Shown: positions 2,658-30,049 of the stretch, piece after piece
How positions within the stretch are numbered: the stretch's first letter is position 1
Layout of the letters: every line of letters begins with the position of its first letter
Source: Lacibacter sp. H375
GTDB taxonomy: Bacteria; Bacteroidota; Bacteroidia; Chitinophagales; Chitinophagaceae
NCBI RefSeq assembly: GCF_037892425.1
Contig: NZ_JBBKTT010000001.1
Coordinates: forward strand, 1,488,001-1,552,000
Length of the DNA: 64,000 nt
Direction: 5' to 3'
The notes under the pieces: model-generated
Seen by the model: only the letters and a program-made list of their open reading frames with translations
Told to the model about the DNA's origin: nothing
Database searches by the model: none
Translations under genes and position numbers: made by a program

Positions 2658-3125
2658 ATGCACGAACAACTAAACTTTATAAAGAACGAATACATACCCA
2701 TCATTCGTGAAGCCGATATTTCTGTTCAACCCAAATGGGGAAAAATGAATTTTCAGCAAATGGTGGAACATGTGGCTGCTTTCTTTAAAGTATCAACGCA
2801 TAAATTAAAATTCGATCTTGTTTCACCTCCTGAACATATGCCTAAGCTCAAAGAATTTTTAATGAGCGATAAACAGTTCAGGGAAAACACAAAAGCTCCC
2901 TCAAGTATCATCGGTGAAGAACCTTTTCCTGTTCATTATTCATCAGCTGAAGAAGCGGTTGCCAAACTGGAAAAAGAAGTCAACCACTTCTTTCATTTTT
3001 ACGAAACTAATCCAACAGCTACTGCAGTTCATCCTGTATTTGGCGAACTGAACTTTGAAGAATGGGTAAGGCTCCATTATAAGCATGTTACTCATCATTT
3101 GCGACAGTTTGGTTTGCTAAGTTAA
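2658..3125 (+). CDS. DinB-like protein of the DUF1569 type
   Basis: 155 residues, no signal peptide, predicted cytoplasmic four-helix bundle. The pattern WGKMNFQQMVEHVAAFF near residue 27 and the C-terminal WVRLHYKHVTHHLRQFGL resemble the DUF1569 branch of the DinB/YfiT superfamily, in which spaced histidines often bind a metal. No substrate can be assigned. It has its own promoter (TACATTTG at 2631) and is separated by 69 bases from paaZ. I am confident it is a real gene, less so of the family detail. Confidence 0.8.
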   Translation: MHEQLNFIKNEYIPIIREADISVQPKWGKMNFQQMVEHVAAFFKVSTHKLKFDLVSPPEHMPKLKEFLMSDKQFRENTKAPSSIIGEEPFPVHYSSAEEAVAKLEKEVNHFFHFYETNPTATAVHPVFGELNFEEWVRLHYKHVTHHLRQFGLLS

Positions 3126-27283: not shown

Positions 27284-28429
27284 ATGGCCGGATTCTTTCG
27301 CAGCTTTACAAAGAAGTTTTTCATTTTCTGCAATATTGTGTTGAGTGTTTGTATGCTGCTCTTGTATTTTCTCACTATGCTTCCGGCATCTGTTTCCTGG
27401 ATCGTTAATCTGTTTGCGCTTCTTTTTCCTTTCCTTCTTATTGCGCAATTTGCATTTCTTGTTTTCTGGCTGATAGCAAAACCTAAAATTGCTTTCATCC
27501 CTGTCGTTACCTTATTACTTTCTATTGAATTGATCGGTTCTTTCTTTGGCTTTCATCCAAACTCAAACAATAAATTTTCAGATACTACAACATTTCGGGT
27601 AGCTACCTGGAATGCGCATCTCTTTAATTTTTTTGAGAACAAAGGTCATCTTGATCTTGGTATGCTACAGGAAGCAAAAAATTTTCAAGCAGATGTGTTG
27701 GCCGTGCAGGAACTTGTTTTTTCACTCGACACATTATCGCCTATTACACTCGAAAAAGTGAAGAAGAAGCTTGGTTATAAATATGTAGCTGCGGCCAATG
27801 ACAGGGCTTTTGGCGTACATACCAACATCAGGCAACGAAATGAACGCTATCATCCCTTTTGTGTAGCCGTATTTTCTAACTACCCCATTTTGCGTTGGGA
27901 AAAAGTACAGGATATAAAAGAATACAATCACACATTTTTATGGGTTGATCTTTTAATTAAAAATGATACCATACGGCTGTTCAACATTCACCTGCAGAGT
28001 ATGCACTTTGCCAAAAAGGATTATGAATTTGTCGAGAACATCGATCAACAGGGGATGGATGTAGATGCAGTGCAAACGGCTGGTAAAAGTATTCTCCGGA
28101 AAATGAAAACAGCGAATTTGCTGCGCTCAAGCCAGGCAAGAAATGTAAGGGAAGCAATTGATAAAAGCCCATACCCGGTAATTGTTTGTGGCGATATGAA
28201 TGATGTGCCCAACTCCAATGCTTACCAGATTATCAGCGATAATTTGCACGATGCGTTTACCGAAAAAGGCTGGGGTATTGGACGAACCTTCAAATTCCTG
28301 TCGCCTACTTTACGAATCGACTATGTGCTGCACAGCCAATCATTATCAGTGGAGCGGGTGCAAGTGTTAAGATCAATGCAAAGTGACCACAGCCCTGTAA
28401 TTGCCGATTTTAATTTACAGAACAAATAA
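27284..28429 (+). CDS. Endonuclease/exonuclease/phosphatase-fold membrane protein
   Basis: 381 residues. Three hydrophobic segments in the first 95 residues anchor the protein, and an EEP-fold domain follows. Motifs include FRVATWNAHLFNF, LAVQELVFS with the metal-binding Glu, VIVCGDMNDVPNSNAY, and the C-terminal SDHSPVIADF with the catalytic His. The domain probably faces the periplasm. Substrate unknown: the fold covers DNA repair nucleases, phospholipases and sphingomyelinases. It is third in the rhomboid operon. The cysS leader promoter starts 10 bases after its stop. Confidence 0.87.
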   Translation: MAGFFRSFTKKFFIFCNIVLSVCMLLLYFLTMLPASVSWIVNLFALLFPFLLIAQFAFLVFWLIAKPKIAFIPVVTLLLSIELIGSFFGFHPNSNNKFSDTTTFRVATWNAHLFNFFENKGHLDLGMLQEAKNFQADVLAVQELVFSLDTLSPITLEKVKKKLGYKYVAAANDRAFGVHTNIRQRNERYHPFCVAVFSNYPILRWEKVQDIKEYNHTFLWVDLLIKNDTIRLFNIHLQSMHFAKKDYEFVENIDQQGMDVDAVQTAGKSILRKMKTANLLRSSQARNVREAIDKSPYPVIVCGDMNDVPNSNAYQIISDNLHDAFTEKGWGIGRTFKFLSPTLRIDYVLHSQSLSVERVQVLRSMQSDHSPVIADFNLQNK

Positions 28430-28439
28430 TTGGAAATAC

Positions 28440-28447
28440 TATCTTTG
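28440..28447 (+). promoter_or_regulatory. Promoter -7 box TATCTTTG of the cysS leader
   Basis: Exact TAnnTTTG match whose last base is six bases before the ATG of the poly-Cys leader ORF. The predicted transcription start (about 28452) is one base from that ATG. The -33 element is weak (TTTA at 28414). Confidence 0.65.
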
Positions 28448-28452
28448 TTTCA

Positions 28453-28497
28453 ATGAAGAAATTCTTCTATACCTGTTGTTGTAGCTGTTGTTGCTGA
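28453..28497 (+). CDS. Poly-cysteine leader peptide upstream of cysS
   Basis: A 14-codon ORF encoding MKKFFYTCCCSCCC, then TGA. Six of the last seven residues are cysteine, encoded by TGT five times and TGC once. It lies 58 bases upstream of the cysS ATG, directly behind a Bacteroidota promoter box. Such an enrichment in the codon that the downstream enzyme charges is the classical mark of ribosome-mediated attenuation. Poly-cysteine short ORFs controlling downstream genes are known in mycobacteria. Seven T follow the stop, but I see no strong terminator hairpin before them; a weak stem GTTGCT/GGCAAC (28490-28495 with 28505-28510) spans the T run and includes the last Cys codon. Confidence 0.75.
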   Translation: MKKFFYTCCCSCCC

Positions 28498-28555
28498 TTT
28501 TTTTGGCAACCCATCCCTCTTGTACAACATTCTTCATTACAACCATTTCATGTTT

Positions 28556-30049
28556 ATGTCGCAGCTAAAAGTTTACAACTCACTTACACGTCAGAAAGAA
28601 GTATTTGAATCTATCACACCCGGTCATGTGGGCATGTATGTGTGCGGACCAACCGTTAGTGGTGAAAGTCATCTCGGTCATGCAAGACCTTACATTACGT
28701 TTGATTTATTGTATCGTTACCTCACACATCTTGGTTACAAAGTGCGTTATGTGCGCAACATTACAGACGCAGGTCATTTTGAAGAAGAAGGTCGTGAAGC
28801 AGAAGATAAAATTTCAACCAAAGCAATATTAGAAAAACTGGAGCCGATGGAACTGGTGCAGAAATACACCAACCTTTTTCATTGGGCCATGGATCAGTTC
28901 AATACAATAAAGCCTTCTATTGAACCAACTGCAACGGGGCATATTGTGGAGCAGATCGGAATGATACAGCAGATCATTGCTGCCGGTTATGCCTATGAAG
29001 TAAACGGTTCGGTTTATTTTGATGTAAAGAAATATGCAGCCAGTCATGATTACGGAAAGTTGAGCGGCCGTGTTATTGATGATCTCTTAGAAACAACACG
29101 TGAACTTGACGGACAGGAAGAAAAACGTGACCGTGCTGATTTTGCTCTTTGGAAAAATGCAGCACCTGAACATATCATGCGTTGGCAAAGTCCGTGGGGT
29201 GTTGGTTTTCCCGGCTGGCATATTGAGTGCTCGGCCATGGCAACAAAATATTTAGGTGCACAATTCGATATACATGGTGGAGGTATGGATTTGCAATTCC
29301 CACATCACGAAAGTGAAATTGCACAAAGCACTATCTGCAATCATACAGCACCGGTTCGTTACTGGATGCATAATAACATGATCACCATTAACGGTAAGAA
29401 GATGGGAAAGAGTTATAACAATGTGATCAAGTTAACGGAACTGTTCAGCGGCGACCATCCGATTTTGGAGAAAGCTTATCATCCGATGACAGTGCGTTTC
29501 TTTATTCTGCAAACGCAATACAGAAGCACACTTGATTTTGGTAATGAAGCATTGCAGGCTGCAGAAAAAGGATTGAAGCGTTTACTGGAAGCACATGAAT
29601 GGTTACAGAAGTATGATGTTGGAAGTGTGAAGTACGAAGCGAAAGATGCAGCACTTGAAGCAAGCAGCCTAAAGCTCATTGCAGAGTTTGAAGAATTCAT
29701 GAATGACGATTTGAACACAGCAAAAGCATTGGCGAGTATGTTTGAACTGGTGCCTGTGATCAACGGATTAAAAGACAAGCATGTTGCAGCAGATGCATTG
29801 AGCGTTGATACCATTGTGTTGATGCAAAAGCAAATGAAACTGTACATCGAAGATATTTTTGGATTGAAAAGTATCAGTGCCGAAGACAGTGGCCGTTTTG
29901 ATTCGGTGATGCAGATTTTAATTGAGTTGCGGAAAGATGCAAAATCGAAAAAGGATTTTGTTACGAGTGATAAGATCCGCAATCAACTGGCTGAACTTGG
30001 TATTCAGTTGAAAGATGAGAAAGATGGTGGGATGAGTTACAGTTTGTAA
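28556..30049 (+). CDS. cysS: Cysteinyl-tRNA synthetase
   Basis: 497 residues from the ATG at 28556; ATGs at 28520 and 28550 add non-conserved residues. Zinc-site Cys and HIGH-type motif are in YVCGPTVSGESHLGHARPY, further zinc ligands are in WHIECSAMA and HHESEIAQ, and the KMSKS-type loop is KKMGKSYNN. It charges tRNA-Cys. The HIGH motif reads HLGH. The C-terminal anticodon-binding region (about residues 350-497) is complete. It lies behind the poly-cysteine leader and is closed by a terminator at 30076-30106. Confidence 0.97.
   Translation: MSQLKVYNSLTRQKEVFESITPGHVGMYVCGPTVSGESHLGHARPYITFDLLYRYLTHLGYKVRYVRNITDAGHFEEEGREAEDKISTKAILEKLEPMELVQKYTNLFHWAMDQFNTIKPSIEPTATGHIVEQIGMIQQIIAAGYAYEVNGSVYFDVKKYAASHDYGKLSGRVIDDLLETTRELDGQEEKRDRADFALWKNAAPEHIMRWQSPWGVGFPGWHIECSAMATKYLGAQFDIHGGGMDLQFPHHESEIAQSTICNHTAPVRYWMHNNMITINGKKMGKSYNNVIKLTELFSGDHPILEKAYHPMTVRFFILQTQYRSTLDFGNEALQAAEKGLKRLLEAHEWLQKYDVGSVKYEAKDAALEASSLKLIAEFEEFMNDDLNTAKALASMFELVPVINGLKDKHVAADALSVDTIVLMQKQMKLYIEDIFGLKSISAEDSGRFDSVMQILIELRKDAKSKKDFVTSDKIRNQLAELGIQLKDEKDGGMSYSL

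Follow-up and report, generated by a model that had tools for sequence, protein, structure and literature searches.

The gene that charges tRNA-Cys in Lacibacter sp. H375 is preceded by a very short open reading frame crowded with cysteine codons, which raises the question of whether translation of this frame reports the cysteine supply of the cell to the gene behind it, and by what route. The first-pass annotation of the locus, made from the letters of the DNA, had proposed that the level of charged tRNA-Cys controls cysS through this leader. We follow the question through the window (the whole stretch of DNA analyzed, 64,000 nucleotides of a 5.08-Mb genome, G000) and through the cysS upstream regions of related genomes.

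A cysteine-rich reading frame upstream of cysS

All features of the locus lie on the forward strand. A gene of the endonuclease/exonuclease/phosphatase family (27284 to 28429; Pfam PF03372, E=1.4e-20) is followed, after 10 nt, by the -7 promoter box TATCTTTG (28440-28447), which corresponds to the Bacteroidota consensus TAnnTTTG. The leader ORF, MKKFFYTCCCSCCC* (28453-28497), begins with an ATG at 28453, 5 nt past the box and thus directly behind it as first described, and closes with a TGA ending at 28497. Its putative regulatory codons, TGT TGT TGT AGC TGT TGT TGC, occupy positions 28474-28494 and place six Cys among the last seven residues; this count and the 58 nt given for the distance to cysS were both correct. 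The gap (28498-28555) is poor in G and rich in C and U (C 28%, G 7%), and it is a possible Rho-loading or initiation region. The downstream gene (28556-30049) is indeed the one that charges tRNA-Cys, being cysS for cysteine--tRNA ligase (TIGR00435, 451 bits against a cut-off of 340; PF01406). Its start, the ATG at 28556 (ATGTCGCAG), is present in 11/11 aligned congeners, and an alternative in-frame ATG at 28550 occurs only in L087 and L088 among them.

The leader stop is separated from cysS by 58 nt in the window and by 36-140 nt across the 80 leader-bearing loci described below, which bears on the possibility that the leader raises cysS translation through ribosome reinitiation and senses no cysteine. 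Reinitiation from leader genes near a downstream start has been proposed, with Bacteroidetes included, in the relevant part of PMC4833913, but the distance peak given there for Bacteroidetes lies at 11-14 bp. Reinitiation also leaves the Cys run before cysS unexplained, and we regard it as highly improbable.

Conservation of the cysteine run

The regions compared came from the best 80 loci of a named genome collection, from 30 loci of 39 near genomes, and from further genomes of the family. Removal of 22 duplicates and of four loci without a cysS anchor (L078, L084, L113 and L116) left 222 distinct regions, among them a few loci that belong to other families within the order, together with several records whose title goes no further than Bacteroidetes or Sphingobacteriales. 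We called a leader where an ATG-initiated ORF of 8-40 residues with at least three Cys in five lay within 320 nt upstream of cysS. Among the matches listed, 80 of the 222 regions carried such a leader, mostly in Chitinophagaceae, and the 162 family genomes fetched from these matches divided into 63 with and 99 without one; the sources hold only the best-scoring matches, so both fractions describe uneven samples. The survey of cysS upstream regions that the first-pass annotation had recommended thus does recover short Cys-run ORFs. A leader whose ATG follows the promoter box by 4-7 nt was found in 50 of the 162 family genomes fetched (among the matches listed). When at least four of five consecutive residues had to be identical, in ATG ORFs of 8-40 residues within the same 320 nt, the repeated residue was Cys in 62 of the 222 regions and Leu in 10, and no other amino acid qualified in more than one (again among the matches listed), which supports the earlier judgement that the run is not a product of chance.

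The proposal had been made to depend on retention of the frame in close relatives, and within the window's genus 12 of 14 genomes keep the leader; it also occurs in many other genera. The two congeners that lack it are both 2.4-Mb genomes (G005 and G006), and in G006 an ORF MKHRNHIACC with two Cys can be read by eye. Across 11 aligned congeners, residues 2-7 drift freely and the Cys run stays, with interchange of TGT and TGC, changes in the inserted residue, and small insertions and deletions. Examples from elsewhere are MKKFSKYCCCCCC, MNLTSTRRFSCCCC, MTHPHLHTCCCC, MARYSIYTCCCCCC, MNAPRLLFCCCC and MKKQTCFTCCCCCC. Cultured species with a leader include Sediminibacterium roseum and Segetibacter aerophilus, the second having an atypical box. 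Outside the family, 0/52 Bacteroidota cysS loci showed even two Cys in three residues, at least one of these loci (L309) having only about 210 nt of upstream sequence. TGY repeats are common in the window's genome, where both strands together hold 170 sites with four consecutive copies, so the repeat alone is unconvincing; it is the combination of frame, position, promoter spacing and conservation that convinces. This conservation suggests that the cell gauges its cysteine supply and adjusts CysS accordingly.

If the product were itself a working Cys-rich micropeptide, such as a metal or redox sensor acting through free thiols, this would account for the extreme density of Cys and for a few variants with extensions such as CPCG (L021 and L047). 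However, little is common to the predicted peptides beyond the Cys run, their length and spacing vary, and the gene behind them charges tRNA-Cys; we give this explanation a very small chance.

Two Segetibacter loci (L027 and L029) were inspected by eye. Both have the Cys codons and a GCAG arm, there is no box directly before the ORF, TACCTTTG lies behind the ORF, and L027 has no in-frame ATG. Possibly these leaders are decaying or differently started.

Promoter spacing and the predicted transcript start

The sequence TAnnTT[TC]G stands 4-7 nt before the leader ATG in 58/80 loci, compared with a background of 1.2% over all positions of these regions. The choice of ATG behind this count favored one behind a box, and 10/80 loci had more than one candidate; with a neutral choice the count is 53/80 (nearest ATG) or 56/80 (most upstream ATG). 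According to the description of Flavobacterium psychrophilum promoters in PMC9723704, the -7 box occupies positions -12 to -5. Transferred to the window, this places the predicted transcription start at 28452 (forward strand), with a 5' UTR of 1 nt, and combined with the spacing of 4-7 nt it leaves 53-58 of the 80 loci with a predicted 5' UTR of 0-3 nt. The leader AUG is therefore predicted to coincide with the RNA 5' end or to follow it by no more than about 3 nt, and so to be leaderless or nearly so. Such short 5' ends form only a small share of transcripts in the phylum, with about 3.7% of the 5' UTRs of B. thetaiotaomicron below 10 nt and 5.5% of those of F. psychrophilum leaderless, in the sections on transcript ends of PMC9723704 and PMC7366714.

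A second TAnnTTTG between leader stop and cysS was present in 28/80 loci, against 3.2 expected by shuffling, so a leader-free basal cysS transcript may exist there; the window's own gap (28498-28555) contains none. The second box and the abundance of TGY repeats in the genome are what one would expect if the TTG/TGY repeats were a DNA-level promoter feature (e.g., a -33 element serving a second, downstream promoter) or low-complexity sequence, and the frame were not a gene at all. Yet in many divergent loci the frame runs from an ATG close behind the box to a stop beside the Cys run, TGC and TGT alternate within it, and the window offers no second TAnnTTTG, so that we attach practically no weight to this explanation. 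The proposal that the leader senses charged tRNA-Cys and so would control cysS is, by comparison of sequences, strongly supported.

Predicted base pairing at the leader stop codon

The last Cys codons are predicted to pair around the stop codon in a hairpin, H1, which in the window extends over 28490-28510 of the forward strand (GTTGCTGA, 28490-28497; loop TTTTT; TTGGCAAC, 28503-28510) with an ensemble probability of 0.97; such a hairpin is found in about half of the loci. For this and the following pairing tests, loci with a gap of more than 100 nt were dropped (80 to 76), and for the permutation tests the remainder was thinned to 61. A 3' arm motif (GCA[AG]C, CAGC or GCAA), chosen after inspecting the sequences, occurs no more than 14 nt past the stop in 42/76 loci, against 5.4% of windows in the rest of the gap. 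Leaders ending in GTTGC before the stop are accompanied by GCAAC in 13/22 loci and by GCAGC in 1, and leaders ending in GCTGC by GCAGC in 4/11 loci and by GCAAC in none. Folding was at least as good as in 95% of 3'-side shuffles for 35/76 loci, and comparison with swapped partners gave a weaker signal (mean rank 0.39, 4/76 at or below 0.05; permutation p=0.025, n=61), with p values here and below being approximate since kinship was handled by thinning alone, without a tree.

The first-pass annotation had noted the absence of a canonical terminator and described a weak stem over a T run. A simple scan agrees on the first point, finding no intrinsic terminator in the window. The stem was rightly seen and recurs across loci; its T's, however, sit in the loop and no T run comes after, so H1 is not an intrinsic terminator here. 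Nor does the window region, or its predicted fold, contain the terminator-like site of a classical transcription attenuator.

Termination of transcription has nevertheless to be weighed as the output of the same Cys-sensing leader, either Rho-dependent or weakly intrinsic and located in the gap. Once the ribosome was released, the G-poor, C-rich untranslated RNA would load Rho, which a stalled ribosome would prevent; alternatively, the Cys-codon hairpin with a U-rich tail would itself act as the terminator. Across the 76 leader-to-cysS gaps, C exceeds G in 97% (C 23%, G 11%), and the same bias holds for the final 50 nt upstream of cysS in 92% of leader versus 73% of non-leader loci, but an unstructured initiation region would also look C-rich and G-poor. 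Twelve of the 76 gaps are intrinsic-terminator-like against 2.8 expected, and in seven of these the Cys codons form the 5' arm of the stem (L023, L147, L148, L166, L168, L199 and L231), whereas no terminator is scored in the window or elsewhere in its genus. Rho has been proposed for the terminator-less mycobacterial cys leaders in the corresponding part of PMC1262725. A pure Rho model, on the other hand, leaves the pairing of the start region described next without an obvious role. We consider termination in the gap a serious possibility, although the balance tilts against it.

Predicted pairing of the leader start region with the RNA before cysS

Within the window, AAUGAAGAA (28452-28460) is complementary to UUCUUCAUU (28530-28538). 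We refer to this candidate start lock as H2; its 5' arm, AATGAAGAA (28452-28460, forward strand), holds the leader start codon, and its 3' arm, TTCTTCATT (28530-28538, forward strand), lies at -26 to -18 of the cysS ATG. The pair is altered on both sides in L026 (AUGAAACAG/CUGUUUCAU), in L248 (AUGAAGAAAC/GUUUCUUCAU) and in L023 and L168 (AAAUGAAU/AUUCAUUU), the last two being loci without a box at that place. Over 76 loci the start of the best 3' arm ranges between -69 and -1, counted from the cysS ATG. An exploratory test gave a modest result (mean rank 0.35 where 0.5 is expected, 10/76 loci below 0.05); the complementarity was first noticed by eye, so this test and those that follow include the loci that suggested it.

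The start arm is predicted to bind the far region of its own locus more strongly than that of permuted partners (-6.51 versus -5.59 kcal/mol, p=0.0002, n=61), and the difference persists when the loci of this genus are excluded (p=0.0066, n=55). The controls gave p=0.38 for untranscribed upstream DNA and p=0.055 for the middle codons, and p=0.26 was obtained for the start arm with the near region. Pairing of the Cys codons with the region before cysS was considered as well and rejected as not specific (far region, p=0.61). H2 is strong in part of the loci only, the residual falling below -2 in 15/61 own pairs versus 12.5% of swapped ones. Its ensemble probability is at least 0.87 in nine of the 11 genus sequences, 0.21 in L095 and 0.07 in the window, whose own minimum-energy fold contains no H2 and whose region is predicted to fold with no more stability than shuffled versions (z=-0.98). 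The matched-partner specificity of these predictions points to complementarity between the leader start region and the RNA before cysS in the window's genus and in some others. Short motifs before cysS are also more frequent at leader than at non-leader loci (CAAC, 31/70 versus 19/120; TTCAT, 23/70 versus 12/120), in a comparison confounded by promoter sequence in the non-leader loci.

Stall modelling and a candidate mechanism

A stalled ribosome was modelled by blocking 30 nt around the first Cys codon, and the cost of opening positions -30 to +10 of cysS was calculated. The modelled stall lowers this cost in 11/11 sequences of the window's genus, and in 48 other sequences the mean falls from 6.3 to 5.3 kcal/mol. 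Because blocking RNA always removes pairing partners, own leaders were compared with swapped ones. The relief amounts to 1.51 with own and 1.02 with swapped leaders (p=0.018, n=49), and outside the window's genus it is not leader-specific (p=0.16, n=44). A version in which the leader sequesters the cysS start codon itself (-15 to +12) was rejected, there being no stall relief (3.97 versus 3.70 kcal/mol, p=0.48, n=59). Given that H2 is weak in the window's fold and that relief is unspecific outside the genus, a translational lock is a hypothesis for the genus and not for the family.

These comparisons point to a probable cysteine-responsive leader peptide, that is, a ribosome-mediated, tRNA-Cys-responsive attenuator of cysS. 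In the proposed sequence of events, a ribosome would load on the 5'-terminal leader AUG. With ample Cys-tRNA it would pass the Cys codons and depart, upon which H1 and H2 could form and cysS would be held down. With Cys-tRNA in short supply, through low cysteine or too little CysS, it would stall around codon 8, its footprint would cover part of the H2 5' arm and the Cys codons of H1, and the RNA before cysS would be freed. Either cysS would then be translated, or transcription through the leader would escape termination. For the window's genus, we give translational rather than Rho-dependent output a chance somewhat short of even. In translational attenuation of the ermC type, a ribosome stalled on the leader frees the downstream initiation region. 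The element described here differs from that type in that its signal would be uncharged tRNA, not a drug, and in that no Shine-Dalgarno sequence is sequestered.

A more elaborate version, which we put forward tentatively and think rather unlikely as a whole, is an attenuator with two locks and no Shine-Dalgarno control. H2 would lock the leader's 5'-terminal start codon and H1 the Cys codons and stop, and one ribosome, halted at the first Cys codon, would break both, so that the leaderless start codon would serve as both entry to the sensor and lock. The element would then form part of a wider near-leaderless set in Chitinophagaceae, with Cys leaders before cysS and before a TonB receptor of a sulfur cluster, and a Phe/Tyr leader before pheA.

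Other candidate leaders in the genome

We scanned 864 kb of the window's genome for a box, a gap of 4-7 nt, an ATG and a short ORF with at least four of six residues identical, which returned four matches versus one for a displaced-gap control. One of the four is the cysS leader itself, and another lies antisense inside a gene. Of the remaining two, a second Cys leader, MKNVNHLNIHMIMRFASATRCCMCNC (G000:C1 2619967-2620047; end of L391 and L392 1-47), has its -7 box 7 nt upstream and its stop 79 nt before a TonB-dependent receptor gene, beside genes of sulfate assimilation. On the upstream side, NCBIfam models identify cysH, cysD and cysN with scores over cut-off and a cysJ-like gene with a score below it (TIGR01931), and Pfam recognizes a sulfite/nitrite reductase; on the downstream side, past one gene, is a PLP enzyme of Cys/Met metabolism (PF01053). 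Leaders with SA[TD]RCC stand at 7/11 full-length receptor loci, and homologues occur in L412-L416 and L418. An exact-DNA search for this second leader type, which was too strict, found it in 1/195 genomes.

By eye, an operator-like repeat, approximately AAAGTCTAyyAwwwwGGTAG, was seen upstream of the TonB receptor or other genes in L411-L416, L418, L419 and L424, followed in several of these loci by CTACTAAATTTGTAGG overlapping the -7 box. Its sequence suggests that a DNA-binding regulator may also act on the TonB receptor or other genes. In two Chitinophaga loci (L081 and L086), ORFs MNNINIFRSDRCCCCNIAIAIHQG and MYNIFIADRCCCLL... with a DRCC motif lie no more than about 160 nt before cysS. The motif resembles the TonB-receptor leaders, and L424 shows MNKHFLAFHWSADRCCCK... 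before another gene; the two Chitinophaga ORFs have no -7 box directly in front and so may represent a different leader type.

A Phe/Tyr-rich leader, MTINKGYRFFYFSFFYFRMKPGLLLLNAN, was found 5 nt behind TATTTTTG on the minus strand (L376, about 3630-3480; G000:C1, about 103.5 kb). The best NCBIfam match of the following gene is prephenate dehydratase, below cut-off. A long hairpin AAGAATCCCGGCC/GGTCGGGATTCTT between leader and gene can be made out by eye, as can a possible antiterminator partner CCGGGACTCC; an automatic scan called no terminator. A Phe-run match near window position 2990 on the minus strand lies antisense inside the ORF at 2658-3125 and was taken as chance. The regions ahead of the cysEK genes and immediately ahead of cysH in the window's genome yielded no comparable leader. 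The frame MLACCESE, whose ATG lies 72 nt before the start of a cysE-like gene (named by eye; cysK by TIGR01136), was rejected as a leader since that ATG is only 1 nt behind the box and thus upstream of the predicted transcription start.

Relation to known cysteine leaders

No covariance-model match to Rfam 15 families, T-box included, was obtained up to E=1 in window positions 28300-28700. By class, the element is judged from its sequence to be very probably a Cys-tRNA-sensing leader of cysS. We found no report of such a leader from Chitinophagaceae in the open-licence literature, and an earlier prediction is possible. A comparative study by Lopatovskaya and colleagues from 2010 reportedly treated attenuation at amino-acid and aminoacyl-tRNA genes.

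Leaderless polycysteine short ORFs are described from mycobacteria (Canestrari et al. 2020, as cited in PMC9031893 and PMC13236596), and in the descriptions given by these citing papers ribosome speed on them depends on cysteine and translation of the downstream genes is attenuated. Like them, the window's leader is a short ORF whose Cys codons crowd together toward its stop; from the spacing of the box, its start is predicted to have a 5' UTR of 1 nt. The mycobacterial ORFs, as the citing papers describe them, precede genes of cysteine biosynthesis or cys operons, whereas the gene downstream here is cysS, in a member of the Bacteroidota. The Bacteroidota leader also has the predicted hairpin of Cys codons and stop and the pairing of its start region, a comparison in which the mycobacterial elements enter by description only. 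We do not place the window's leader in the mycobacterial leaderless polycysteine class, although it may work alike.

The uORFC-8-2 element, presented in the relevant section of PMC8632094 as a cysS uORF found only in Rhodobacterales, with a proposed attenuation driven by Cys-tRNA, likewise has Cys codons in a uORF upstream of cysS and includes them in its first stem (PMC8632094). As characterized there, it differs in carrying a tandem pair of Cys codons, usually codons 14 and 15, and in a consensus whose final U run would fit an intrinsic terminator, a feature absent from the window. Candidate Cys leaders were proposed in 2005 for cys/cbs genes of Mycobacterium, Propionibacterium acnes and Bifidobacterium longum (PMC1262725). 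In the account of that paper they share Cys runs near the stop with the window's leader and, in Mycobacterium, have no conserved terminator hairpin; they belong to other genes and to another phylum, the Actinobacteria. We take the poly-Cys leader of cysS to be a Bacteroidota variant of the published Cys-leader systems of mycobacteria and Rhodobacterales.

Leader-peptide control has been noted in Bacteroidota, in passages of PMC9723704 and PMC7366714, and in our judgement it has hardly been dissected there. If our reading is true, Bacteroidota, like mycobacteria, would read cysteine supply through an ORF with a 5'-terminal AUG. This would represent convergence on a very simple sensor and would offer a compact reporter of cysteine status. 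It would also make testable the question of whether leaderless amino-acid leaders run the amino-acid metabolism of Chitinophagaceae.
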